From contig JAUZPB010000017.1 in assembly GCA_030706145.1 (NCBI GenBank), positions 1-60,595 on the forward strand: 60,595 bases of DNA, written 5' to 3'. A program made the position numbers and the translations under genes. The notes under the pieces were generated by a model, which was not told the origin of the DNA, made no database searches, and was given only the letters and a program-made list of their open reading frames with translations. The stretch's first letter is position 1. Each line of letters begins with the position of its first letter. Shown piece by piece: positions 31,162 to 54,311 of this stretch. This stretch comes from Bacteroidota bacterium. Its GTDB lineage: Bacteria > Bacteroidota > Ignavibacteria > Ignavibacteriales > SURF-24.

Positions 31162-32209
31162 CCACTTTCATATTATCTTTTAAAGAACTTTTGGGCAAAT
31201 CTACGACCTTTGTCCCTTCAGATAATTTATCTGCCGGTATCTCGGTAAACTGTCCATCAGATTGGGTTGATGCAGAGAGTAAAACTTTTTTGAGGTAGTT
31301 GTTTTGAACTACAAAAACATAGCTTTGGGAGTTTTCATCAACTATTGCAGTTTTAGGTAAAAGAAGAACATTATTTTTTTCATCTGCTTTAATATTAATT
31401 GTTGCAGTCATTCCCAAGTTTAACTTTTCTGGTCTATTATTTAGCTTTATATAGATTTTTGAAGTCTTAGTAGTTTCATCAGTCCTTGGTGTAATTCTAA
31501 CGATACGGCCTTCATATCTTTCTTCAGGATAGGCATCGAAGGCAACAATAGATTGCATCTGTTTATTGATTTTCCCCAGATCCTGCTCATCGACTTCTCC
31601 CTCAATGAGAATTGAACTTGGAGCAAGAAGTTCGAAGCATTCTGCATTTGGAGGAAGATAATCGCCAAGATTAGCTTTTACATTTACAAGCAGTCCAGAA
31701 AACGGAGCAATAACTTTTGTATTAGTCAGGCTTACCTTTGCAACATCTAACGATAACATTTTTTGTTGAAGAGTAATTCTTGCAAGGTCAAGCGTCTGTA
31801 TAGCATCTTCATATTCTTTTTTGGTGATTGAATTGACTTTGAAAAGATTTTCTTTTCTTTCAAAGTCCTTTTCTTTAGCTGAAAGATCAATCCGGGCCAA
31901 GCGGATCTGATTTTCAACATCCTGCAACTTTAGTAACTCATCTTTTTGATCAGTTCGAAGTATTTCATCTCCTTTGCTAACATATGTTCCCTCCTTTCCT
32001 GCAACGGAAATAACAATGCCCCCCGATTCTGAGCGCAGTAAAGCTATCGAATCAGCAGTAACTGTCCCAGTAGCATAGATCAGAGTAACTAGCTTACCTC
32101 TTTTTACAGGAACAATCTTAACCTTCTCGTGGACAAATAGTATGCGGTAGAAATAAAAAAGAAGAAAAATCATGATCAAGGCAAGTATGGCTATAAATTT
32201 CTTTTTCAT
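31151..32209 (-). CDS. HlyD/MacA-like periplasmic adaptor
   Basis: A 352-residue adaptor with an uncleaved anchor (IAILALIMIFLLFYFYRILF), lipoyl half-motifs (LRSESGGIVISVAGKEGTYV near 63 and IAPFSGLLVNVKANLGDYL near 165) and an intervening coiled coil about 90-155, then beta-barrel and membrane-proximal domains (TPRTDETTKTSKIYIKL). It is the first gene of the ABC operon. MacA-type adaptors form a hexameric tube between permease and outer-membrane channel; no dedicated TolC gene is in this operon, so it might share one encoded elsewhere, such as 21393-22751. Confidence 0.9.
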   Translation of the reverse strand: MKKKFIAILALIMIFLLFYFYRILFVHEKVKIVPVKRGKLVTLIYATGTVTADSIALLRSESGGIVISVAGKEGTYVSKGDEILRTDQKDELLKLQDVENQIRLARIDLSAKEKDFERKENLFKVNSITKKEYEDAIQTLDLARITLQQKMLSLDVAKVSLTNTKVIAPFSGLLVNVKANLGDYLPPNAECFELLAPSSILIEGEVDEQDLGKINKQMQSIVAFDAYPEERYEGRIVRITPRTDETTKTSKIYIKLNNRPEKLNLGMTATINIKADEKNNVLLLPKTAIVDENSQSYVFVVQNNYLKKVLLSASTQSDGQFTEIPADKLSEGTKVVDLPKSSLKDNMKVDAN

Positions 32210-32290
32210 TTAATTTAGCCTTTTGATAATTAAAGAAGTTGCACATAGGCTAAATCTAATAATTGTACATAAAAGTTTCCAAATAAAAAT

Positions 32291-32344
32291 AAAAAAGGGA
32301 ATTCCAAAGATTCTTTGATTTCAAAGAACCTTTTACGAATTCCC
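32291..32344 (-). terminator. Rho-independent terminator of trpB2
   Basis: On the minus strand, beyond the trpB2 stop, an outer stem GAATTCCC/GGGAATTC encloses an inner stem TTCTTTG/CAAAGAA, followed by TTTTTT-A-TTTTT. This complete intrinsic terminator separates trpB2 from the ABC operon that starts at 32209. Confidence 0.85.
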
Positions 32345-32370
32345 CTTTAAAAGATAGTATATAAAAAATT

Positions 32371-33735
32371 CTATACGTTTACTTCAGGTAACTGCCCAAG
32401 ATACTCATTTATATGTTCTTCAGGAAGCTCATATTCATCGAGTGTATTTTTTAGATAAGCATCATATGCTCCAAGGTCCAAAAATCCATGGCCAGAAAGA
32501 TTAAACAGAATAGTTTTTTTCTCACCTGACTCCTTGCATTTCAGGGCATTTTCAATAGCTGATTTTATTGCATGAGAACTCTCAGGAGCTGGCAAAATAC
32601 CTTCAGTTTGAGCAAAGGTACGTGCAGCGTCAAAGACTTCGACCTGATTGTAAGCCTCGGCTTCGATTAATCCCAAATTATAAAGGTGAGATACAATTGG
32701 TGACATTCCATGGTATCGTAAACCGCCTGCATGAATTTTTGGGGGGACATATTTGTGTCCAAGAGTATACATTTTCATCAAAGGTGTAAATCCAGACATA
32801 TCGCCGAAATCATAAGCAAATTGTCCTTTAGTTAGTGAAGGGCATGAAGCAGGTTCAACGGCAATTACCTCGAGATTTTTTTTCAGACCACTAAATTTAT
32901 CTTTCAAGAAGCTATGGCTAATACCGCCGAAGTTACTTCCACCGCCCGCACAAGCAATAACGATATCGGGGTAATCACCAACTTTTTCCAGCTGTAGCTT
33001 TGCTTCTTCGCCAATAATTGTCTGGTGTAAAAGGACATGATTAAGAACACTACCCAAAGCATAGTTTGTATCATCTCTTTGCGCTGCAATTTCAACAGCC
33101 TCACTAATTGCAATTCCAAGAGAGCCAGGAGAATTTGGATCTTCCTTTAATACATTACGTCCAGATTCTGTAACTAAAGAAGGACTAGCAACAACTTCTG
33201 CACCAAAGAGTTGCATAAGAGATTTCCTGTATGGTTTTTGTTCATAACTTACTTTCACCATAAATACCTGACATTCCATTCCAAAGTGGCGGCAAGCCAT
33301 TGACAAGGCGCTACCCCACTGCCCTGCACCTGTCTCAGTTACTAACTTTTTAATTCCAGCTTTTTTATTATAATAGGCCTGTGCAACAGAAGTGTTCAGT
33401 TTATGGCTACCTGAAGAATTAGTGCCTTCATACTTAAAGTATATTTTTGCGGGTGTATCTAAGAATTTCTCTAATCTATAGGCTCTAATAAGTGGAGTTG
33501 GCCGGTTTAGAGAATAAATATCCAAGACCTCATCAGGTATTTCAATATAACGCTCTGGGCTCATTTCCTGTTTTATAAGTTCCAAGGGGAATATCTGCAT
33601 GAGGTCCTCAGGTACGACTGGCTTTTTCGTAGCAGGATGAAGAGGAGCAGCCAAAGGTTCTGGAAGATCTGCAAGAATATTATACCACTTCGTGGGCATT
33701 TCATTAACATCAAGAGTAATTTTGTTTGATTTCAT
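32371..33735 (-). CDS. trpB: Tryptophan synthase beta-like protein TrpB2
   Basis: A 454-residue PLP enzyme of the TrpB2 group, longer than the classical TrpB (~400) and lacking a trpA neighbour. TrpB condenses indole and serine to tryptophan. Lys112 in SGSHKLNTS is the PLP lysine; GAGQWG near 135 and the phosphate loop AGGGSNFGG follow, and [10 protein letters not shown] near the end is group-typical. TrpB2 enzymes usually do not bind TrpA and are thought to salvage free indole. I chose the ATG at 33735 because GGAGAA lies 8 nt upstream; the longer frame starts in a terminator's U-tract. Expression appears to be under Trp-dependent attenuation (33779-33966). Confidence 0.94.
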
Positions 33736-33778
33736 TTCAAGTTCTCCATTTATTTTGTTTGCGAAAATTTTTTCACAC

Positions 33779-33810
33779 AAAAAAAGCCGTGCTTTGAAAA
33801 GTCACGGCTT
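33779..33810 (-). terminator. Attenuator terminator 2 (proximal to trpB2)
   Basis: RNA arms AAGCCGTG and CACGGCTT with an inner CTTT/AAAG extension, followed on the minus strand by seven T (33785-33779). It lies 43 nt before the trpB2 start. Its 5' arm (GCCGTGA, 33808-33802) is perfectly complementary to the 3' arm of terminator 1 (TCACGGC, 33830-33824). Confidence 0.8.
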
Positions 33811-33818
33811 ATAAAGAC

Positions 33819-33854
33819 AAAAAGCCGTGAATAGCTTGTTTCACTATCCACGGC
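33819..33854 (-). terminator. Attenuator terminator 1
   Basis: RNA arms GCCGTGGATAG (33854-33844) and CTATTCACGGC (33834-33824) form an 11-bp stem with one G-U pair and a 9-nt loop, then five T (33823-33819). It is placed 32 nt after the leader-peptide stop, as in classical amino-acid attenuators (arms 3 and 4). Confidence 0.88.
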
Positions 33855-33885
33855 TTTTATTTAATATCTATAAATTATAATAGCG

Positions 33886-33966
33886 TCAGGAGAGCGAAAC
33901 GTAATTGTTCCACCACCAACGCCAGGTGCAATTAACTTTGTTTAATATATTAATTTGTTTTTTCAT
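33886..33966 (-). CDS. trpL: Trp leader peptide
   Basis: A 26-codon ORF starting with ATG at 33966 and ending with TGA at 33886. Its core reads NCTWRWWWNNY: Trp at positions 15, 17, 18 and 19, far above chance in an AT-rich genome. The final codons (V-S-L-S) are the antiterminator arm itself. No Shine-Dalgarno is visible, and the predicted promoter places transcription start close to the ATG, so it may be translated leaderless. Its only role would be to sense charged tRNA-Trp through ribosome movement. Confidence 0.85.
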   Translation of the reverse strand: MKKQINILNKVNCTWRWWWNNYVSLS

Positions 33967-33973
33967 TATTGAT

Positions 33974-34002
33974 AATATAATCAGTAATAATGATATTTTC
34001 AA
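33974..34002 (-). promoter_or_regulatory. Sigma-70-like promoter for trpL-trpB2
   Basis: TTGAAA (34002-33997), a 17-bp spacer, then TATATT (33979-33974) on the minus strand. Only 7 bases separate the -10 box from the leader ATG, so the transcript should start at or very near that ATG. Confidence 0.65.
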
Positions 34003-34022
34003 AAAAAAGTTAATAAAATTGT

Positions 34023-34048
34023 AAATTTTTCTTCAGGAAGAAAAATTT
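34023..34048. repeat. 12-bp AT-rich inverted repeat
   Basis: AAATTTTTCTTC and GAAGAAAAATTT separated by AG, in the gap between the divergent trpL and sigma-factor promoters. It could be a weak bidirectional hairpin or a protein-binding site upstream of the trpL promoter. Confidence 0.4.
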
Positions 34049-34158
34049 TCTTTAATTTATTACCTCTAGAACAAATCTTGACAAATTCTATAAAGTGCTA
34101 AAAACCTACCCCCTGGCCAAAATAATCGTACTTCGGGAGAATCTTTTCTCAAAATCCG

Positions 34159-34205
34159 TTGTTATTAAATTAACATATAACTATATGTTAGCATATAACT
34201 ATATG
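34159..34205 (+). promoter_or_regulatory. Candidate sigma-factor promoter with two 14-bp palindromes
   Basis: CATATAACTATATG occurs twice (34174-34187 and 34192-34205), 18 bp apart; each copy is itself a palindrome (CATATA-AC-TATATG). The first overlaps a possible -10 box TATATG (34182) that lies 17 bp from TTGTTA (34159). The layout suits an autoregulated or repressed promoter for the downstream sigma gene. Confidence 0.45.
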
Positions 34206-34245
34206 ACCCCTAGTGTCTTCTTAAATAAAGAGTGACAAAAATAAA

Positions 34246-34815
34246 TTGAGCGCCAATAATAAACTAAATTACGTTAATTTCTCTCAAAGGGAGTTAACTG
34301 ACCTATTCACTTCCTCAAAAGAAGGAAATTCAGCTTCCTTCGAAAGACTTTCACTATATATTCGAGAAATATCCTTTAGCTATTTTTTATCCAAGTACCA
34401 CAGTGGAAAGCTCCATGACAGGCTTGATGTAGATGACCTTACAAATAACGTTTATTTAGCTTTCGCTGGACAATATCAAAATATTGATAATCTGGAATTC
34501 TGGTTAAGAAGAGTGCTATTTATAACATTTATCAACTTTTACAAGCATAACAGAATAAATAAGACTTATGAGTTTGACGAAACATATTACAGAAACAATG
34601 ACCAATTAGAGCAGAATATATCTGAAAAACAAGTAGATGCTGAAAAGATTCTGAAGATTCTTGAGACACTAAGTGTTGATAAACAGCGGATTCTTAAGAT
34701 GAGATTCTGGAAGGATTTAAAGTTTGCTGATATAGCAAAAGAATTGAATAAATCAGAAGTAGCCATTAAAAAAATGTTTTACAGAACCATTGAAGAACTT
34801 AAAAAAAAGATATAA
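34246..34815 (+). CDS. RNA polymerase sigma-70 family factor (ECF-like)
   Basis: A 189-residue two-domain sigma factor. Region 2 (about 25-105) contains LHDRLDVDDLTNNVYLAF and the -10-reading stretch FWLRRVLFITFINFYKHNR. Region 4 (about 135-189) contains VDKQRILKMRFWKDLKFADI followed by an HTH ending EVAIKKMFYRTIEELKKK. No region 3 is present. The only start in frame is TTG at 34246, which may keep its level low. The gene 144 bp downstream encodes a membrane protein with a zinc-finger-like cytosolic segment, the expected anti-sigma partner. Confidence 0.88.
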   Translation: MSANNKLNYVNFSQRELTDLFTSSKEGNSASFERLSLYIREISFSYFLSKYHSGKLHDRLDVDDLTNNVYLAFAGQYQNIDNLEFWLRRVLFITFINFYKHNRINKTYEFDETYYRNNDQLEQNISEKQVDAEKILKILETLSVDKQRILKMRFWKDLKFADIAKELNKSEVAIKKMFYRTIEELKKKI

Positions 34816-34959
34816 GCCTTTATATATAATCACAATTGTGCGGCAAATATTATGACATTCCAAATATAAGTTTAATTTATCATTTTTTAGTCTTAGTAAG
34901 AGATGTCACAATCTAATAATGAAATGGCACTAATTATCTATAGCTAAAAATCATCTAAA

Positions 34960-35937
34960 ATGAACAATTGTGAACGGATCATTGATTTATTAGATAAGAA
35001 TTCTCTTTCAGATGAGGAACAAAGGGTTCTATCAGAACTAATTGAAAACGATGTTAATGCGAAAGAGTTTTATGATACATATAATAAACTAAAAGACTTA
35101 TTTTACTCCTCAGGGCACATTCCTGATGATGTTCTAATGCAGTTTGTTGTTGATAAGAATGAAAAAAAAGGACTAAATAGCCCAACCTGCGCAAAAGCAC
35201 CTTTTATTGAAAAGCACTTAAAGGAATGTCCTAATTGCAAGAGAGAATTCCTTATTTATTGTAATGAATATTCTTCAATTAATCTCTTCCTGGAAGATAC
35301 TCTTTCTGTTAAAGGCGATGGAATCACTTCAAATTTATCCCAAAGCAAAAATAGGTTTACACGAAAAGACAGGCAAAAATACTATGGACTAATAATAAGT
35401 CTTCTTGGCGGACTTATTATACTGTATTTTGTTCTATTTCAAGCTTTTTCTTCATTTATACCCAAATATAAAAAGTATGCTTCATTGGACAAATCAGTTG
35501 ATTTCTATCTTACAGGAGAAAGAGCATCAAACGAATTTCAAAAAAGTATGCTCGCAATTCAAAACAGGGATTATGAGTCGGCAATAAATTTCCTAAAGCG
35601 CGATATACAAAACAACAATGAAGATGAAGATATTTTCTATTCATACTTTATTCTTGGTACAATATATCTAGAAAGTGCAAAAACCAGTTTTCTTGGCTTG
35701 TTCCCAAGATACAATAAAAATGCTATAGAGTCTGGAATCAGCAACCTTAAGATGAGTATCCGGAAGAACAAAACAATGAGGGCTAAGGAGATTAACTTTG
35801 ATTCATATTACCTAATTGGCAAAGCATATCTAATGCTAGATAATATTTCAGAGGCAAGGAAATACTTCCTTTTTGTAGTTGACTCCAATAGTAGCAAGGC
35901 AGAAGAGGCAAAAGAAATTCTCAGTCATCTGCATTAA
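34960..35937 (+). CDS. Probable anti-sigma factor with periplasmic TPR domain
   Basis: A 325-residue membrane protein. The cytosolic part (1-140) ends in a zinc-finger-like H86-x3-C90-x2-C93 (KHLKECPNCKREF), the signature of ZAS anti-sigma factors. A single helix lies at 141-165 (YYGLIISLLGGLIILYFVLF). The periplasmic part (about 185-320) is made of TPR-like repeats (AIQNRDYESAINFLKRDIQN, YYLIGKAYLMLDNISEARKY). The layout suggests that a periplasmic protein interaction releases the neighbouring sigma factor. The assignment as anti-sigma rests on position and the HxxxCxxC motif. Confidence 0.75.
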   Translation: MNNCERIIDLLDKNSLSDEEQRVLSELIENDVNAKEFYDTYNKLKDLFYSSGHIPDDVLMQFVVDKNEKKGLNSPTCAKAPFIEKHLKECPNCKREFLIYCNEYSSINLFLEDTLSVKGDGITSNLSQSKNRFTRKDRQKYYGLIISLLGGLIILYFVLFQAFSSFIPKYKKYASLDKSVDFYLTGERASNEFQKSMLAIQNRDYESAINFLKRDIQNNNEDEDIFYSYFILGTIYLESAKTSFLGLFPRYNKNAIESGISNLKMSIRKNKTMRAKEINFDSYYLIGKAYLMLDNISEARKYFLFVVDSNSSKAEEAKEILSHLH

Positions 35938-36145
35938 TCCTTCGTTTTCACTCTGCAAGACAATTGATCTATTTATAAATCAGATCTTCTATAAACACGT
36001 ATAGGAAACTATTCATAATTGTTTCATTTATTATACACATCATTCATAAAACACATTAAAATCGCACAATTCATCTATTCTTTATTTTGGCATGCGCTTT
36101 GGATAATTATCATAAGAAATGGAAAACAGAAGGAAATAAGAGAAA

Positions 36146-45549: not shown

Positions 45550-46188
45550 ATGATAAACGAGTTAAAATCAGTGCCTGAACCGACACTAAGAAGGCTGCCA
45601 GTATATCTTCATTACTTAAAAGATATTTACAAGGCCGGTAAGTCAGAAGTTTCTACGACTAATATAGCTGGGGAGCTAAAATTAGATCCTACTCAGGTCC
45701 GAAAGGATCTAGCCTATACCGGAATAGCTGGAAAGCCAAAGGTTGGATATGATGTTGAGGTTTTGATAAGCACGATAGAAGATTTCCTGAACTGGAATAA
45801 CCTTACAGATGCCTTCTTAGTTGGAGTAGGTAATCTTGGTATGGCTATACTAGGTTATAACGGATTTAAGAAATATGGGTTAAATATAATAGCTGCTTTC
45901 GACAATGACCCCGCAAAGATCGGAAGAGAGATACACAACGTACCAGTACTTCCAATAGAAAAGCTTTCCGATTTAATTAAACGTATGCACATTCATATCG
46001 GCATCTTAACAGTCCCTGCAACAGAGGCACAGAAAATAACTGCACTTATGATTCAAGGAGGAATAGAAGCGATCTGGAATTTCGCTCCGGCTTCATTGAA
46101 AGTCCCGGAGGAAATAGTAGTTGAAAATGCTGGCTTTACTACGAGCCTAGCTGTTCTGACCAGGAAACTAGCCGAGAAACTCAAGTAA
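45550..46188 (+). CDS. rex: Redox-sensing transcriptional repressor Rex
   Basis: A 212-residue protein, usual for Rex. The winged helix (about 8-75) contains TTNIAGELKLDPTQVRKDLA and GKPKVGYDV. The Rossmann domain (78-180) has the NADH site VGVGNLGMAI, and the C-terminal swap helix ends in LAVLTRKLAEKL. Rex leaves DNA when the NADH/NAD+ ratio rises and so derepresses fermentation and hydrogenase genes. The next gene, 181 bp away on the same strand, starts a hydrogenase operon, an obvious target. The palindrome GAGAAA-AA-TTTCTC at 45522 upstream does not match the known Rex operator. Confidence 0.96.
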   Translation: MINELKSVPEPTLRRLPVYLHYLKDIYKAGKSEVSTTNIAGELKLDPTQVRKDLAYTGIAGKPKVGYDVEVLISTIEDFLNWNNLTDAFLVGVGNLGMAILGYNGFKKYGLNIIAAFDNDPAKIGREIHNVPVLPIEKLSDLIKRMHIHIGILTVPATEAQKITALMIQGGIEAIWNFAPASLKVPEEIVVENAGFTTSLAVLTRKLAEKLK

Positions 46189-46368
46189 AACAATATCATT
46201 TTTTAGATTGATTTTTGAACACAAAAAAAAACGATTTTGATGTTCGGGGGATTTTTTTGTCATTTTGAAAAAGAAGACAAGAAGGTCTCCGAAAAAGACC
46301 AGGGAAAATAAATAGAATTAAAAACTTCAACTATTTAGACTTAAAATCTTAGGAGAAAACAGAAAGTA

Positions 46369-46890
46369 ATGATGACTGATACTCAAACGATGAGCAGATC
46401 GAGGCAGTTTAGTAAGGTCTGCGAAATTCTAGAACGTTACTCATATGACTCAACAAAACTAATACCCATTCTGCAGGCTGTTCAGGAAGAATACCGTTAT
46501 CTGCCAGAAGAGGTACTAACATTTGTTGCGACATCTCTAAATCTATCACCTGCACGTGTTTATGGAGTAGCTACATTTTATTCTCATTTTGCTCTACAAG
46601 CGAAAGGGAAATATTTGATACGTGTCTGTGACGGTACTGCCTGTCACGTAAAAGGCTCAGTATCTCTTATAGAGGTCATTCAGGAAAAACTCGGTTTAGA
46701 TGAAAAGAAAAGAACGACTCCCGATATGCTCTTTACTCTTGAGACTGTCTCCTGCTTAGGTGCATGCGGTCTGGCTCCTGTTGTTGTAATAAATGATGAG
46801 ATTCATGGCCAGATGACCAAAGAAAAAACAAATGCTTTAATTGATGAAATAATTTCTATGGAGAAGAGCTATGTACCGAGAAACAATTGA
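46369..46890 (+). CDS. hydC: Bifurcating [FeFe] hydrogenase subunit HydC (NuoE-like)
   Basis: A 173-residue NuoE-like protein with one [2Fe-2S] cluster in a thioredoxin fold: VCDGTACHVKG (C-x4-C) and SCLGACGLAP (C-x3-C). In HydABC hydrogenases this subunit helps pass electrons to and from the flavin subunit. The helical N-terminus (ILQAVQEEYRYLPEEVL) is typical. It overlaps hydB by 20 bp, so the subunits are translationally coupled. Rex is encoded just upstream. Confidence 0.94.
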   Translation: MMTDTQTMSRSRQFSKVCEILERYSYDSTKLIPILQAVQEEYRYLPEEVLTFVATSLNLSPARVYGVATFYSHFALQAKGKYLIRVCDGTACHVKGSVSLIEVIQEKLGLDEKKRTTPDMLFTLETVSCLGACGLAPVVVINDEIHGQMTKEKTNALIDEIISMEKSYVPRNN

Positions 46891-48763
46891 TCTCAAAGAG
46901 ACAGCAGAACAATACAAAGAGAGCATAAAATCTGTAAGCAGACGTATTATTGTTTGCGCCGGAACAGGTTGTATGGCAAATGGTGCAGAAAGAGTTTACA
47001 AAGCTTTTATTAGCCAGATAAGTTTATCAGGACTAGATGTTGTTGTTGAATTAAAAGAAGAAAATCATGGGATATTTGTTTCCCAGTCAGGTTGTCAGGG
47101 TTTTTGTCAGATGGGACCTTTAGTGTCAATCGAGCCAGAGAATCTTCTCTATGTCAAAGTAAAACCAGAAGATGTCAAGGAGATTGTCAAGGAAACAATA
47201 ATCGAAGGCAAGGCAATAGAGCGCTTGCTCTATACAATTGCTTCAACAGGAGAGCATTGCAAAGGTCCGGATGAAATTCCATTTTATACAAGACAGTCAC
47301 GTTTTGTACTTAAAAGATGTGGATATGTCGATCCAGAAAATATTAAAGAATATATATCCTTAGGTGGTTATAGCGCTGCAGAGAAAGCATACAAACTAAT
47401 GGAGCCCAAAGAGATTTGTGATGAAATCCTGAAATCCGGTCTAAGAGGCCGTGGGGGAGGCGGCTTTCCAACCGGAAGGAAATGGGATCTTACAAGGATT
47501 CAGCAAGAGAAAAAGAAATATGTAATATGTAACGCAGATGAAGGAGATCCTGGAGCTTTTATGGATAGAAGCGTTATGGAAGGAAATCCTCACAGTGTGC
47601 TTGAAGGAATGATGATTGCTTCTCGTGCCATAGGTGCCGATGAAGCATATGTTTATGTAAGAGCTGAATATCCGCTTGCAGTAAAAAGAATTAGAAAAGC
47701 TGTTCATGATGCAGAACAGGCAGGTATATTAGGGGATAATATTTTTGGTACAGGAAAAAGTTTCCATGTAAATGTAATGGAAGGAGCCGGAGCTTTCGTC
47801 TGTGGAGAAGAAACAGCGATGATTGCATCAATTGAAGGAAAGCGAGGCATGCCTTCACCCAAACCACCTTATCCTGCTGTTAACGGCTTATGGGGAAAGC
47901 CCACTGTAATAAACAATGTTGAGACTCTGGCTACAGTTCCATTAATAATGACAATGGGGGCCGATGAATATAGAAAAAGAGGCACAGAGAAATCCTCAGG
48001 GACAAAGACCTTTGCTCTTACAGGTCATGTTGTCAATACAGGTTTAATAGAAGTACCTTTTGGCACTACTCTAAGGGAGATTGTTTACAACATTGGCGGT
48101 GGTGTATTAAATAATGACGGAACACTCTCAGAAGATGGTTTTAAGTCTGTACAAATTGGTGGTCCTTCTGGTGGTTGTCTTACCGAAGAACATCTTGATA
48201 TGCCTTTAGACTTCGATTCGCTGCGAGGTATTGGAGCTATGGTAGGGTCTGGTGGACTAGTAGTAATGAACAAAGAGACCTGCATGGTAAAAATTGCCAG
48301 GTACTTTATGCAATTTACACAAAATGAATCATGCGGCAAGTGTGTTTTATGCCGTGAGGGGACAAAACAAATGCTAGCTCTGCTTGATGATATAATTGAA
48401 GGCAGAGCGACAGTAGAGACAATTGATCTGCTTGAAAAGTTAGCAAAAGCCGTTGCCCAGGGCTCACTTTGTGGATTAGGGAAAACAGCTCCAAATCCAA
48501 TACTTTCTACGCTTAAACATTTCCGTAAGGAATATAACGAACATGTAATAAACAAATTCTGCGCTACGAAGAACTGCAAGAGCTTAAGAGCCCCGGAAAT
48601 AGATCCCGTTTTGTGCAAAGGATGCACAGTTTGCAAGAAGAAATGTCCAGTTGGAGCAATTTCGGGTGAAAGGAAAATGGTTCACAAGATCGATGTTTCA
48701 ATTTGTATCAGATGCGGAGCCTGTGTTGAGGCCTGCAAACTTAATGCTATTACAGGAGTTTAA
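46871..48763 (+). CDS. hydB: Bifurcating [FeFe] hydrogenase subunit HydB (NuoF-like)
   Basis: A 630-residue flavoprotein subunit. In order: an N-terminal [2Fe-2S] thioredoxin-like domain (VCAGTGCMANG, GCQGFCQMGP), the NuoF core with NADH/FMN motifs (GLRGRGGGGFPTGRKWD near 191, NADEGDPGAFMDRSVMEGN near 220), the [4Fe-4S] motif SCGKCVLCREGT near 489, and a C-terminal 2x[4Fe-4S] ferredoxin (LCKGCTVCKKKCP, CIRCGACVEAC). The subunit binds NAD(H) and FMN. With HydA and HydC it allows H2 formation from NADH and reduced ferredoxin together. The whole domain set matches Thermotoga-type HydB. Confidence 0.95.
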   Translation: MYRETIDLKETAEQYKESIKSVSRRIIVCAGTGCMANGAERVYKAFISQISLSGLDVVVELKEENHGIFVSQSGCQGFCQMGPLVSIEPENLLYVKVKPEDVKEIVKETIIEGKAIERLLYTIASTGEHCKGPDEIPFYTRQSRFVLKRCGYVDPENIKEYISLGGYSAAEKAYKLMEPKEICDEILKSGLRGRGGGGFPTGRKWDLTRIQQEKKKYVICNADEGDPGAFMDRSVMEGNPHSVLEGMMIASRAIGADEAYVYVRAEYPLAVKRIRKAVHDAEQAGILGDNIFGTGKSFHVNVMEGAGAFVCGEETAMIASIEGKRGMPSPKPPYPAVNGLWGKPTVINNVETLATVPLIMTMGADEYRKRGTEKSSGTKTFALTGHVVNTGLIEVPFGTTLREIVYNIGGGVLNNDGTLSEDGFKSVQIGGPSGGCLTEEHLDMPLDFDSLRGIGAMVGSGGLVVMNKETCMVKIARYFMQFTQNESCGKCVLCREGTKQMLALLDDIIEGRATVETIDLLEKLAKAVAQGSLCGLGKTAPNPILSTLKHFRKEYNEHVINKFCATKNCKSLRAPEIDPVLCKGCTVCKKKCPVGAISGERKMVHKIDVSICIRCGACVEACKLNAITGV

Positions 48764-48765
48764 AA

Positions 48766-50769
48766 ATGGACGAAAAGAAAAGTTTATATATAAATGGGAA
48801 AAAAGTTCTCATCGAAGGTGAAAAGAATCTTCTTGAGATAATCCGCAAAGCAGGAGTTGATCTGCCGACATTCTGCTATCATTCTGAACTGAGTATTTAT
48901 GGAGCATGCAGGTTATGCCTTGTAGATGTTGAAGGCAGAGGTATAATGGCAGCATGTTCTACAGAACCGCAGGAAGGCATGAAGATCAAGACAACTACTG
49001 ATGAGATCCGTCAGATAAGAAAGATCTCACTTGAGCTTCTTTTAGCAAATCATGCCCATAACTGTCCAACCTGCTCAAAGAGTTCATTTTGTAAGCTTCA
49101 GGAAGTTGCAAGGAAACATGGTGTTGAAGAGGTCAGATTTAAGAAGATTCAGAAATCCTCAGCTCTTGACTACTCAACCTATTCATTAGTGCGTGATCCA
49201 AATAAATGCATACTCTGTGGTGATTGCGTCAGGGCCTGCAATGAGATTCAAGGTATAGGAGCAATTGATTTTGCATTCCGTGGATCAGATGCGACAGTAT
49301 TACCTGCCTTTGGTAAGGACCTTTCAATGGTAGAGTGCGTCGATTGCGGGCAATGTGCAAGGGTTTGTCCGACAGCAGCAATAACACCAAAGTCTGAAAT
49401 AAGTGAAGTATGGAAAGCAATAAGTGATCCTACTAAAACTGTAATTGCTCAGGTTGCTCCTGCAGTAAGAGTAGCTCTTGGGGAAGTCTATGGTTATGCT
49501 TCAGGAGAGGACACAACGGGGCAGATTGTATCGGCCTTAAGAATAATTGGTTTTGACAAAGTTTTCGATACTGCTTATTCAGCTGACCTTACGATAGTCG
49601 AAGAGGCGACAGAATTTCTTGAGAGAAAGACAAAAGGAGAAAAGCTGCCAATATTCACTTCATGCTGTCCAGCATGGGTAAAATTTGCGGAACAGTACTA
49701 TCCTGATCTTCTACCAAATCTTTCTTCTTGCCGTTCTCCCCAGCAGATGTTTGGTTCAGTAGCTAAAGAGATCCTTTCGAAGGAGATTAAAAAAGACAAA
49801 AAAGATATAGTAATTGTATCAATTATGCCTTGTACTGCGAAGAAATTTGAAGCAAAAAGAGAAGAATTCATAAAGGAAGGTATAGCTGAAGTCGATCATG
49901 TTCTTACTACACAAGAACTTGCAAGAATGATAGACCAAGCCGGAATAGTCTTCAAGCAGCTTGAGACTGAGTCGCTTGATATGCCATTAGGCTTTAAGAC
50001 AGGAGCAGGTTTAATCTTTGGGAATTCTGGTGGTGTAACCGAAGCAGCACTCCGCTATCTCTATGAAAAAGTAAGTGGTGAAAAACTTGAGCAGTTCGAG
50101 TTTCAGGAAGTTCGTGGGAATGAATCTATAAGAGAAGCAACAATAAACATAGCTGGGAATGATGTAAAAGTCGCTATAGTCCATGGTCTTGCAAATGCAA
50201 GAAAAGTTGCAGATAAAGTAAAGAAAGGATTGTGTGATTATGACTTTATTGAAGTTATGTCATGCCCCAATGGATGTATTGGCGGGGCTGGTCAACCTGT
50301 AACATTTGATGTAAAGACAAAGAAAGACAGGACAAGAGGTCTATATGAAGCAGACAAGAAGCTGCAACTTCATAAGTCACAGGAAAATCATTTTGTTACA
50401 GATCTTTATAGAAGCACACTAGAAGAACCCGGCAGTCATTTAGCTCATGAGATGCTGCATACTAATTATAGTGCAAGGCGCAGGGTATCAGACACAGAGA
50501 TTCAGATATTAAATGGTTCGGCAAAGGAAAAGCTAGAGATCAGTGTTTGTGTAGGGACGAGTTGCTATCTAAGAGGTTCACAGGATCTACTTTACAAAAT
50601 GATAGATCACATTGAATCAAATAACCTTCAGGACAGAGTAGATGTTAAAGCTACATTTTGTTTTGAACAATGTGACCGTGGTCCATCGGTTAGTATAGGT
50701 GGAAAAGTAATTGAAGGTTGTACATTAAAAAAAGCATGCGATGAAATGCAGAATGCATTAAAAAAATAA
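48766..50769 (+). CDS. hydA: [FeFe] hydrogenase catalytic subunit HydA
   Basis: A 667-residue group A hydrogenase. N-terminal [2Fe-2S] ferredoxin (FCYHSELSIYGACRLC), a His-ligated [4Fe-4S] (HAHNCPTCSKSSFC), two [4Fe-4S] motifs (CILCGDCVRAC, CVDCGQCARVC), then the H-cluster domain: L1 FTSCCPAWVKF near 298 with both Cys, including the proton-relay Cys; L2 MPCTAKKFEAKREE near 354; L3 MSCPNGCIGGAGQP near 498. A C-terminal [2Fe-2S] thioredoxin-like domain (585-667) has CVGTSC and CFEQCDRGP. It makes or oxidises H2 in the cytoplasm. Two bases separate it from hydB. Maturation genes hydEFG are not in view. Confidence 0.97.
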   Translation: MDEKKSLYINGKKVLIEGEKNLLEIIRKAGVDLPTFCYHSELSIYGACRLCLVDVEGRGIMAACSTEPQEGMKIKTTTDEIRQIRKISLELLLANHAHNCPTCSKSSFCKLQEVARKHGVEEVRFKKIQKSSALDYSTYSLVRDPNKCILCGDCVRACNEIQGIGAIDFAFRGSDATVLPAFGKDLSMVECVDCGQCARVCPTAAITPKSEISEVWKAISDPTKTVIAQVAPAVRVALGEVYGYASGEDTTGQIVSALRIIGFDKVFDTAYSADLTIVEEATEFLERKTKGEKLPIFTSCCPAWVKFAEQYYPDLLPNLSSCRSPQQMFGSVAKEILSKEIKKDKKDIVIVSIMPCTAKKFEAKREEFIKEGIAEVDHVLTTQELARMIDQAGIVFKQLETESLDMPLGFKTGAGLIFGNSGGVTEAALRYLYEKVSGEKLEQFEFQEVRGNESIREATINIAGNDVKVAIVHGLANARKVADKVKKGLCDYDFIEVMSCPNGCIGGAGQPVTFDVKTKKDRTRGLYEADKKLQLHKSQENHFVTDLYRSTLEEPGSHLAHEMLHTNYSARRRVSDTEIQILNGSAKEKLEISVCVGTSCYLRGSQDLLYKMIDHIESNNLQDRVDVKATFCFEQCDRGPSVSIGGKVIEGCTLKKACDEMQNALKK

Positions 50770-50786
50770 ATAAAGCATGGTTCCAG

Positions 50787-50811
50787 GGGGCATTGAAAAA
50801 TGCCCCTTTTT
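50787..50811 (+). terminator. Rho-independent terminator after hydA
   Basis: GGGGCATT-GAAA-AATGCCCC followed by TTTTT: an 8-bp GC-rich stem with a GAAA tetraloop and U-tract. It closes the hydCBA operon, so the sensory module downstream has its own promoter. Confidence 0.92.
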
Positions 50812-51121
50812 GTATTTGCTAAAATATTTCAGGTATGATATTTGAGAAATTATAAACTGGAGATTAATTTCGGTCTGCTATAGGATTATATAAAGAGCCT
50901 GGAGACTTCCCTATTCTGGGCTAAAAGAAAGACTAACTGGCAGAGAAATGCTAAGGATTCTGATAGAAAACAGGATAATTTCGAGAGATAATTCATACTT
51001 TATTTGTTTTTACTTATCACTGTACGTCTAAAAAGTTTGTTATTCATAAAGTTGTATTTCTCATAATAAAGAAAATTGCATTCCCGGAATTTATTTTCCA
51101 AATCGTGGAGTATAAGGTTGA
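50812..51121 (+). other. 310-bp gap: expected promoter region of the sensory-hydrogenase module
   Basis: No gene is supported. A 46-codon open frame (about 50900-51030) lacks a good start. A promoter must lie here because a terminator precedes it, but no convincing -35/-10 pair or operator was recognised. Confidence 0.5.
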
Positions 51122-51379
51122 ATGTCTGATAATGCTCAATATAACAAGATTGTAATATGCATGGGGAGCTCATGCTTCTCTCGTGGCAATAATAAAAATA
51201 TAGAAGTCATAAAGGAATTTGCAAAGAACAACAAAACGAAAATTGATATAGAAATAATTGGTAATCTTTGTGAAGACAAATGCAACAGGGGTCCTAATAT
51301 CAGAATAAACGATAAGCTATACGACAATATTGACCCTAATTCGTTAGTTGAACTACTAAATAGGCTGCTTATAAAGTAA
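51122..51379 (+). CDS. [2Fe-2S] thioredoxin-like ferredoxin of the sensory module
   Basis: An 85-residue stand-alone carrier with CMGSSC (C-x4-C) and CEDKCNRGP (C-x3-C), the signature of the NuoE/thioredoxin-like [2Fe-2S] fold. It is visibly similar to the C-terminal domain of HydA (shared C-x-G-x-S-C-x2-RG and RGP). Such a small protein commonly precedes the sensory hydrogenase gene in anaerobes. It probably passes electrons to or from the H-cluster protein encoded 15 bp downstream. Confidence 0.88.
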   Translation: MSDNAQYNKIVICMGSSCFSRGNNKNIEVIKEFAKNNKTKIDIEIIGNLCEDKCNRGPNIRINDKLYDNIDPNSLVELLNRLLIK

Positions 51380-51394
51380 GGGCAAGAGATTAAA

Positions 51395-53122
51395 ATGAAC
51401 TACTTAAAACCGATATATACCGAAAAAGCAAATTGTCAGGATTGCTATAAATGTGTCAGAGCATGCCCTGTAAAGGCAATAAAGGTTGAAAATGGGAGTG
51501 CAACGGTTATTTATGAACTCTGTATTACTTGTGGAACATGTGTTGATGTCTGCCCGGCCGGTGCAAAGAAAGTCAGAGATGATCTTGGGAGGGCAAAACA
51601 ACTCCTGAACTTAAAGGAAAAGGTTATAGCCTCAATTGCTCCATCATTTATAAGCGAGTTTCCTAATACTGATCCAAAACTAATTATTGCTGCACTTAAA
51701 AAGCTTGGTTTCTATGGTGTATCGGAGACTGCGCTGGGGGCACAGGAGGTTTCAGCTAATGTAGCCGAGCTTTTAAGGGCGGAGAATCCGAAACTTTTAA
51801 TATCCTCTGCTTGTCCTTCAGTTGTCGAGTATATAAAGAAATATCATCCAGATAATTCTGATAATGTTACTGGGTTTCTTTCGCCATTACTATCACAGTG
51901 TAAGCTTCTTAAGAAACAATATGGCGATGAAGTTGGAATTGTTTTCATCGGTCCGTGTATTGCAAAGAAAAAAGAAGCAGAAGCACACCCAGAATTACTA
52001 GATGTAGTAATTACCTTTGAAGACTTTGAGCGCTGGATGGATGAATCAAATGTTAGCTTTGATGAATTATCTGCAAGTGAAGGTGATAAATTTATACCCG
52101 AAGATTCAAAAGAAGGAGCACTTTATCCAATTGACGGAGGGATGTGTTCGGGTATAAAAGCAAATCTTACACTGACGGACAACCAGTTCATGTCTTTTTC
52201 AGGCATCTCGAATATTTCAAATGCTTTGATGTTTTCGGAGCAGTTAAACTTAAAGAATAATCTTTTTTTAGAATTATTAGCCTGTGAGGGCGGATGCATA
52301 AATGGCCCCAAGGCCTCTAGACGATGTGCAACAGTATTAAAGAAATACAATATTTTGAACTATGCACAATATCCGGAAAATGAGATCCCAAGAAGGCCAA
52401 CAATATCAATTAAGGAAAATCTTGAAATTGAGCCAATCCAGCATAAAGAGCACATAGAGGCTGCAATAAAGGATGTATTAAGGGAGATTGGGAAAGTCAG
52501 TCTAAAAGATGAGCTAAACTGTGCAGGGTGCGGATATAATACGTGTCGTGACTTTGCAATATCAATGCTTGAAAACAAGTCAGAAAAAACCATGTGTGTT
52601 TCCTATATGCGTCAGCTAGCACAGAAAAAAGCTAATGCTTTGATTCAAACCATGCCATCAGGAATTGTCATAGTTGATGATAAACTTAAGATTGTTGAGA
52701 GTAATCTGAACTGGGCAAAGCTAATGGGAGAAGAAGTTGAGCTTCTTTATGAAGTAAAGCCTGGTTTAGAAGGGGCATATCTCTATAAAATTGTTCCATT
52801 TTACAAATTATTTCAGAATGTACTCGATTCGGGCAATGACATAGTAGGGAAAGAGATCAACTTTAACAATAATGTCCTGCTTTTTTCAATCTTTACAATC
52901 GAGAAAAACCGCTTTGTTGGTGGAATATTCAGAGACATAACCGAGCCATGGGTAAGAAAGGAGCAGATAATAAACAAAGCCAAGCAGGTAATAAAGAAAA
53001 ACCTGTCGACTGTTCAAAAAATAGCTTATCTGCTTGGAGAAAATGCAGCTGAAACTGAAGTAATTCTAAATGGAATTATTGAATCATTCTCTACGGATCA
53101 AATAGATGATATCGACGAATGA
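51395..53122 (+). CDS. hydS: Sensory-type [FeFe] hydrogenase with PAS domain
   Basis: A 575-residue protein. Two [4Fe-4S] motifs open it (CQDCYKCVRACP, CITCGTCVDVCP). The H-cluster domain has L1 ISSACPSVVEYI near 137, L2 IGPCIAKKKEAE near 186 and L3 LACEGGCINGP near 296. The proton-relay Cys of catalytic enzymes (TSCCP) is Ala here (SSACP), a known mark of group C sensory hydrogenases with low turnover. A further cluster motif CAGCGYNTC ... C (near 376) and a PAS domain (about 405-525) follow. It likely senses H2 and signals to the phosphatase whose gene overlaps by 17 bp. No transmembrane helix is present. Confidence 0.93.
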   Translation: MNYLKPIYTEKANCQDCYKCVRACPVKAIKVENGSATVIYELCITCGTCVDVCPAGAKKVRDDLGRAKQLLNLKEKVIASIAPSFISEFPNTDPKLIIAALKKLGFYGVSETALGAQEVSANVAELLRAENPKLLISSACPSVVEYIKKYHPDNSDNVTGFLSPLLSQCKLLKKQYGDEVGIVFIGPCIAKKKEAEAHPELLDVVITFEDFERWMDESNVSFDELSASEGDKFIPEDSKEGALYPIDGGMCSGIKANLTLTDNQFMSFSGISNISNALMFSEQLNLKNNLFLELLACEGGCINGPKASRRCATVLKKYNILNYAQYPENEIPRRPTISIKENLEIEPIQHKEHIEAAIKDVLREIGKVSLKDELNCAGCGYNTCRDFAISMLENKSEKTMCVSYMRQLAQKKANALIQTMPSGIVIVDDKLKIVESNLNWAKLMGEEVELLYEVKPGLEGAYLYKIVPFYKLFQNVLDSGNDIVGKEINFNNNVLLFSIFTIEKNRFVGGIFRDITEPWVRKEQIINKAKQVIKKNLSTVQKIAYLLGENAAETEVILNGIIESFSTDQIDDIDE

Positions 53123-54311
53123 AATGAAATCTAACTGTTTTATTGAAGTTGATTACCACCAGGGGTTCAAAAACAAACAAATTGTTGGAGGTGATGTATT
53201 CCTGCATCATAAGATCAAGGAAGAGAACAGGATTATTGCAGTTCTTTCTGATGGTCTCGGCAGTGGAATAAAAGCTAATGTACTAGCGACGCTTACCTCA
53301 ACGATGGCCATAAATTTCATTTCCAATTCAAAAGATATATGTGATACGGCAGAAACAATAATGAAGACTCTGCCAGTATGCAAGGTAAGGAAAATAAGTT
53401 ATTCGACATTTACAATTGTTGATGTTGACAACATTGGCAACACGAGGATAATAGAGTATGATAACCCGCCCTTTATTTTAATAAGAAATAATAGAATTGT
53501 GAAGGTTGAGACAAAATTATTAAAGCTCAGATATAATAGGTATAAAGAAAATGTCTTAAAATACTCTGAGTTTTCCTCTCAGATGGGTGACAGGATAATT
53601 TTCTTTTCAGACGGAGTAAGCCAGTCGGGTATGGGGACAAAGGTCATGCCTTTAGGATGGGGAACAGAAAAGGTAGAAGAATATGCACTTTCACTAATAA
53701 AGAACAACCCCGAGATATCGGCCCGTGACTTAGCCCATAATATAGTAAGTAAAGCTTACGCCAACGATAGCTATAAGCCTAAAGATGACATTACATGCGG
53801 AGTAATTTATTTTAGGAAGCCCAGAAAGCTTATGGTACTTTCAGGCCCGCCAATATCAAAAGAAAAGGACAAGGAAATCGCTGAGATGATTAATAACTTT
53901 GATGGAAAGAAAATCATCTGCGGCGGTACAACTGCAAAGATCATTGCCAGAGAGTTAAACAAAACGATATCAGTCGATCTAAACGACTATGACCCTGAAA
54001 TACCTCCATGCTCAACAATAGAGGGAATTGATCTTGTAACCGAAGGAACTATAACGATAGGGAAACTCCTGGAAGCTTTAGAAAGTGACATAAGACAAAT
54101 TGATTATAATAGAAAAAATGCTGTACTCAGTTTGATCAACTACCTTCATGATAGCGATATTATTTACTTTGTTGTAGGAACAAAGATCAACGAAGCCCAT
54201 CAGGATCCTAACATTCCGGTTGAGCTTGGTCTAAGACGAAATCTGATAAAAAATATAGTAAAGATACTCGAAGAAAAATTTTTAAAAGAAACAAAGCTGC
54301 AGTTTTTATAA
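53106..54311 (+). CDS. SpoIIE-type PP2C serine phosphatase of the H2-sensing module
   Basis: A 401-residue protein with an SpoIIE/PP2C phosphatase domain (about 5-240): LSDGLGSGIKANVLA near 46, FFSDGVSQSG near 168 and KPKDDITCGVIYF near 225 supply the metal-binding aspartates. The C-terminal ~160 residues (SGPPISKEKDKEIAEMI, IICGGTTAKIIARELNK) are conserved in H2-sensor operons but have no known function. It overlaps the sensory hydrogenase gene by 17 bp; an ATG at 53124 is an alternative start. The target phosphoprotein is not encoded nearby (no STAS or anti-sigma kinase gene). Confidence 0.9.
   Translation: MISTNEMKSNCFIEVDYHQGFKNKQIVGGDVFLHHKIKEENRIIAVLSDGLGSGIKANVLATLTSTMAINFISNSKDICDTAETIMKTLPVCKVRKISYSTFTIVDVDNIGNTRIIEYDNPPFILIRNNRIVKVETKLLKLRYNRYKENVLKYSEFSSQMGDRIIFFSDGVSQSGMGTKVMPLGWGTEKVEEYALSLIKNNPEISARDLAHNIVSKAYANDSYKPKDDITCGVIYFRKPRKLMVLSGPPISKEKDKEIAEMINNFDGKKIICGGTTAKIIARELNKTISVDLNDYDPEIPPCSTIEGIDLVTEGTITIGKLLEALESDIRQIDYNRKNAVLSLINYLHDSDIIYFVVGTKINEAHQDPNIPVELGLRRNLIKNIVKILEEKFLKETKLQFL

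Follow-up and report, generated by a model that had tools for sequence, protein, structure and literature searches.

Predicted Trp attenuator upstream of trpB2

Sequence comparison and folding models argue, at a probability of about 0.9, for a ribosome-mediated Trp attenuator that controls the stand-alone gene trpB2 in this genome. In the window, i.e., the whole stretch of 60,595 nt analyzed here, the region upstream of trpB2 revealed the features of an attenuator, namely clustered Trp codons in a short leader ORF, an intrinsic terminator (T1), an antiterminator (helix 2:3), and a protector (helix 1:2) over the control codons (Table 1). The first-pass annotation had described a leader ORF of 26 codons with its four Trp codons, and this ORF was recovered exactly as described. 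Likewise, arm 2 can pair with arm 3 at 11 of 12 positions or, instead, with the arm over the Trp codons, and the product of the downstream gene was identified as stand-alone TrpB2 with 671.3 bits against TIGR01415 (cut-off 518.85). While the core mechanism of a Trp attenuator on trpB2 had thus been captured, the annotation was incomplete, since it had missed a second terminator-like hairpin (T2), the complementarity of segment R1 to the 3' arm of T1, and a further attenuator at trpE. The core mechanism is of a known kind, and what appears to be new is a relay from arm 4 to R1.

Among the ATG-start ORFs of 8–45 aa on both strands of the 60.6-kb window, the leader ORF was the only one containing WWW. 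Folding of the leader region compared with dinucleotide shuffles resulted in a z of -6.4, none of the 200 shuffles being as good.

Table 1. Features of the trpB2 locus in the window
Feature	Position	Strand	Evidence
Putative promoter, Bacteroidota type: TTG, 20 nt, -7 box TATATTAT	33972..34002 (TTG 34002-34000, box 33979-33972)	-	motif only
Leader ORF MKKQINILNKVNCTWRWWWNNYVSLS*, 26 codons	33886..33966	-	Trp at codons 15, 17, 18, 19
Arm 1 GGTGGTGGAAC, over the last Trp codons	33907..33917	-	1:2 helix covariation
Arm 2 GTTTCGCTCTCC, last leader codons	33889..33900	-	covariation of 2:3 and 1:2, prefix folding
Arm 3 GGATAGTGAAAC, inside the terminator 5' half, antiterminator partner of arm 2	33838..33849	-	2:3 covariation
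T1, intrinsic terminator (arms 3:4 and U tract)	33818..33856	-	3:4 covariation
Arm 4 CTATTCACGGCTT, T1 3' arm, also complementary to R1	33822..33834	-	arm pairing, R1 complementarity test
T2, second terminator-like hairpin	33779..33810	-	folding
R1, T2 5' arm AAGCCGTGA	33810-33802	-	complementarity to arm 4
trpB2 Shine-Dalgarno region GGAGAACTTGAA	33736..33747	-	
trpB2, stand-alone TrpB-like PLP enzyme, 454 aa, controlled gene	32371..33735	-	TIGR01415 671 bits, NF009057 740 bits

What follows is a prediction as regards the promoter, leader translation, and the Trp response. RNA polymerase would start at the leader AUG or a few bases upstream of it. With ample charged tRNA-Trp, the ribosome would pass the Trp codons, reach the stop codon, and cover arm 2, or alternatively depart and leave helix 1:2 to form; 3:4 (T1) would then form and transcription would end. 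With charged tRNA-Trp scarce, a ribosome stalled on the Trp codons would mask arm 1, arm 2 would pair with arm 3 ahead of the synthesis of arm 4, and trpB2 would be transcribed in the absence of T1. As TrpB2 would make Trp from indole, the switch is expected to raise indole capture under Trp starvation.

Promoter and start of the leader RNA

The -7 box in the window lies 5 nt upstream of the leader ATG. Motif inspection revealed a TTG and a TAnnTTTG-like box at a spacing of 19–20 nt before nearly all orthologous leaders, the box usually being located 4–8 nt ahead of the leader start codon. Since the same promoter box is found at -12 to -5 in Flavobacterium psychrophilum (PMC9723704), a leader 5' UTR of 0–4 nt is predicted (about 1 nt in the window), so that the leader ORF seems to be leaderless or near-leaderless. 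Genus g39 departs from this pattern in that the end of a tRNA-Lys(UUU) gene lies only a few nt ahead of the ATG of the trpB2 leader (L040:2992-3064 (-); L051:1571-1643 (-)) and the usual promoter box is absent before the ATG; the attenuator of this genus may form the tail of the tRNA transcript.

Conservation in Ignavibacteriales and beyond

A Trp leader followed by T1 was found upstream of trpB2 in 37 of 38 readable orthologues from Ignavibacteriales, one per genome, counting only orthologues with enough upstream DNA (L033, cut by a contig end, was left out). Among the carriers is a putative Melioribacter roseus genome, and one orthologue, L041, had lost the leader. All 37 leaders harbored at least two Trp codons and 36 at least three, while the surrounding residues were not kept. 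This comparison of homologous leaders had been set beforehand as the test on which the attenuator could fail; it revealed that all 37 keep the Trp codons together with both alternative pairings, including compensatory changes. Four leaders (L046, L050, L052, and L053) stop directly after the Trp codons and carry arm 2 beyond the stop codon, indicating selection on the Trp codons and the RNA arm rather than on the peptide tail.

Further Trp leaders in the genome were sought with a covariance model of the leader and at trpE. Strong matches of the model (E <= 4.2e-8) occurred once per genome and were all located upstream of trpB2, with the exception of G090, where the gene is missing at a contig edge; since all matches except G090 served to build the model, this result is informative in that no genome revealed a second copy. 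Matches in the class at E 3e-5 to 8e-5 away from trpB2 turned out to be ordinary terminators beside unrelated genes.

In the tree, the leader-bearing TrpB2 clade was set apart at 100/100 support from a second, leaderless clade of TrpB2 within the order, and inspection of the upstream regions of this clade, which is about 60% identical, revealed no such leader. Its genus g14 (L059, L060, L062) harbors a TTG-start ORF ending in HTWPWRR about 100–160 nt before trpB2, with no evident terminator, which is possibly another type of Trp leader. Several other families of the class possess a Trp leader and terminator with different arm sequences before trpB2, as do single contigs of Caldithrix, Neomarinimicrobiota, and Bacteroidales (L099, L118, and L145); based on these three cases, attenuation of trpB2 could be common across the FCB group.

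Covariation and folding of the competing helices

All three helices were supported by the aligned leaders. For the 2:3 helix, 86.6% of cells were paired compared to 30–51% when the arms were slid, and 6 pairs were changed on both sides. The 3:4 helix (T1) was paired in 97.1% of cells, with 4 pairs changed on both sides, and T1 and its U tract were present in 37/37 leaders. For the 1:2 helix over the Trp codons, 88.7% of cells were paired and the covariation score exceeded that of all 500 shuffles. Cognate arms showed better pairing than arms swapped between species, with a z of -9.3 for 2:3 and -6.9 for 1:2 (control 0.1), bearing in mind that the arm-swap permutation leaves relatedness in, while the slid controls remove it.

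Equilibrium folding of the full leader with ribosome masking was uninformative and was replaced by folding of the prefix before arm 4 emerges. In transcripts cut at this point, a ribosome stalled at the Trp codons resulted in a mean P(2:3) of 0.95 with all 37 leaders above 0.5, while a ribosome at the stop codon lowered P(2:3) to 0.03. Folding with and without a stalled ribosome, as had been proposed along with the attenuator, thus yielded the antiterminator in 37/37 stalled leaders. Without a ribosome, the prefix favored 2:3 over 1:2 in 23/37 leaders (0.84 vs. 0.04 in the window), so that default read-through without translation may be high. T1, when complete, is the equilibrium structure of nearly all leaders despite a stalled ribosome; antitermination must therefore be kinetic, as is likewise assumed for classical attenuators.

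A putative second stage downstream of T1

Downstream of T1, we identified a segment, R1, that is complementary to arm 4. Compared with shuffled intervening DNA, this complementarity reached p <= 0.05 in most R1-bearing loci of the order (exception L036, p 0.12), while it was mixed among class-level relatives. R1 coincides with the 5' arm of T2 in the family of the window as well as in others. In folds ending ahead of the 3' arm of T2, P(4:5) was 0.98–1.00 in the first 13 T2-type leaders folded; at equilibrium, it was 0.08 in the window, where T2 wins, and 0.62 and 0.66 in two relatives.

GGUUCAC at the start of trpB2 is a further pairing partner of R1 (of the GCCGUGAACC type) in 15 of the 37 leaders (p <= 0.035 each), and R1 as an anti-Shine-Dalgarno segment characterizes a large clade dominated by Melioribacteraceae. 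R1 of these 15 leaders pairs with arm 4 as long as the latter is free (P 0.74–1.00), while occupation of arm 4 shifts R1 to the ribosome-binding site in most cases (P about 0.6–0.8); in L032 and L038, this second pairing meets competition from a local hairpin. The predicted accessibility of the ribosome-binding site differs only modestly between the two states. According to the tree, the R1 segment and its ribosome-binding-site partner were lost together at least twice. Several relatives from f5, whose arm sequences are unrelated, likewise carry a segment matching the ribosome-binding site (p <= 0.045 in L203, L204, L205, L210, and L215) and, in part of them (L199, L204, L214, and L215), arm 4. 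The window itself (L008) was searched for a segment pairing with the Shine-Dalgarno sequence and none was found (p 0.98), so that the 5:6 pairing seen in the 15 relatives was rejected here.

Since R1 is complementary to the 3' arm of the terminator, a second checkpoint probably receives the outcome of the same ribosome decision. Once released from T1, arm 4 would pair with R1 and disarm this checkpoint. In this genome and its family, the checkpoint would be T2; in the clade dominated by Melioribacteraceae and, with other sequences, in class-level relatives, it would be sequestration of the Shine-Dalgarno sequence. Thus, we favor, with appreciably less confidence than the attenuator itself, a relay 1:2/2:3/3:4/4:5/5:6, in which one decision at the Trp codons would set T1 and then, via arm 4:R1, the second checkpoint, governing transcription and translation of an indole-salvage TrpB. 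From alignments and folding models, this relay is well supported as a pattern and inferred as a mechanism, the window showing the T2 version only.

Alternative explanations

T1 and T2 are both good intrinsic-terminator-like hairpins, and the dominance of T1 at equilibrium would also suit constitutive tandem terminators that shield trpB2 from an upstream transcript, with the short ORF being incidental. We regard this as very improbable, since the upstream gene is divergent (34246, plus strand), leaving nothing to terminate, a promoter motif directly precedes the leader ORF, and the Trp codons, arm 2, and the 2:3 pairing are kept with compensatory changes. Equally small is the chance we give to a leader acting mainly on translation, where the ribosome position would set sequestration of the trpB2 Shine-Dalgarno sequence and T1 would be secondary. 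The double pairing of R1 in the 15 leaders speaks for such control, as does the retention of R1-type pairing with other sequences in f5; T1 with its U tract, however, is kept in every leader, and the lack of an anti-Shine-Dalgarno segment means that this cannot be the main mode in the window.

Control of T1 by a protein or by a small-molecule-binding RNA (T-box, riboswitch, or TRAP-like), with the Trp codons being coincidental, appears the most remote of these readings, though trp genes of other phyla are known to be regulated in this way (for TRAP, see PMC4027176). A search of positions 32000–36000 against Rfam resulted in no family at gathering score, including T-box and riboswitch families, and the Trp codons are kept in all leaders while their surroundings are not. 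In matches up to E 10, Trp_leader (RF00513) was absent and the T-box model likewise had no match; relaxed E-values gave only implausible matches at the locus.

The trpE attenuator and indole salvage

In this genome, the trpEGDCFBA operon possesses its own Trp leader and terminator (L066:7723-7890, G000 C223), so that trpB2 is not the sole Trp-attenuated locus. A Trp leader and terminator at the trpE operon were detected in 29 of 30 genomes examined. The trpE leaders (L066, L216-L245) often share two motifs, a conserved GTYY close to their start and a terminal MTQ. Cross-tabulation by hand, in which absence means a score below the cut-offs used, revealed both trpA and trpE in 23 of the genomes with a leader-bearing trpB2 and neither in 15, one being ambiguous (G148). 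Genomes without detectable trpA and trpE include G112, G114, and G161, which are rated 100% complete. In these 15 genomes, the attenuated TrpB2 would be limited to indole made otherwise or taken up, pointing to a use of TrpB2 for indole salvage. According to reports cited in PMC11917138, TrpB2 enzymes have a high indole affinity and use phosphoserine.

Comparison with known attenuators

The locus shares with trpL-type attenuators (E. coli trp, Sinorhizobium meliloti trpLE(G), and Corynebacterium and Streptomyces trp) the leader ORF with tandem Trp codons, the 1:2/2:3/3:4 helices, the U tract, and a gene for Trp synthesis, and the start of S. meliloti trpL likewise coincides with the RNA 5' end, as predicted here (PMC7298713). 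It differs from them in the stand-alone TrpB2 gene, the Bacteroidota-type promoter, and the complementarity of R1 to arm 4, and no sequence similarity was found (no Rfam match). Corynebacterium diphtheriae likewise harbors a second trpB locus, trpB2A, with its own predicted Trp attenuator beside the main trp operon (PMC1262725); on comparison of gene context, its trpB2 is next to trpA, whereas trpB2 stands alone here. At Salmonella speF/orf34, a leader ORF similarly acts on two levels, in that the position of the ribosome on it determines premature termination as well as access to the ribosome-binding site further downstream (PMC6386406), but speF uses Rho and long-range pairing and responds to ornithine and arginine, compared with the intrinsic-terminator-arm relay and Trp codons proposed here. 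The amino-acid operons of F. psychrophilum are candidates for leader-peptide attenuation and have the superphylum, the class of mechanism, and the -7 box in common with our locus, while the text contains no Trp or trpB2 case and the word tryptophan is absent from it (PMC9723704).

Trp attenuation had been introduced as best known from Enterobacterales, a view to be qualified in that leader-peptide attenuation in general also occurs in Actinobacteria (PMC1262725) and in the Flavobacterium operons (PMC9723704). A search of open-access full texts for Ignavibacteria together with leader peptide and attenuation resulted in no report, though subscription papers may hold an earlier mention. For Ignavibacteriota, in which few genetic studies have been performed, the two loci would represent a clear case of Trp attenuation, with Melioribacter roseus as a cultured species for testing, and would tie a stand-alone TrpB2 to Trp limitation. 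Moreover, the 4:5 and 5:6 pairings suggest that one ribosome decision may be passed without protein to a second terminator or ribosome-binding site.

Other genes of the window

The intergenic region containing the trpB2 leader is shared with a divergent gene for an ECF sigma factor, followed by a TPR/anti-sigma-like gene (34246-35937 (+)). Further along the window, at 45550-54311, translations judged by eye revealed a likely cluster encoding a Rex-like regulator, NADH-linked iron hydrogenase subunits, a PAS-linked iron-sulfur protein, and a SpoIIE-like phosphatase.
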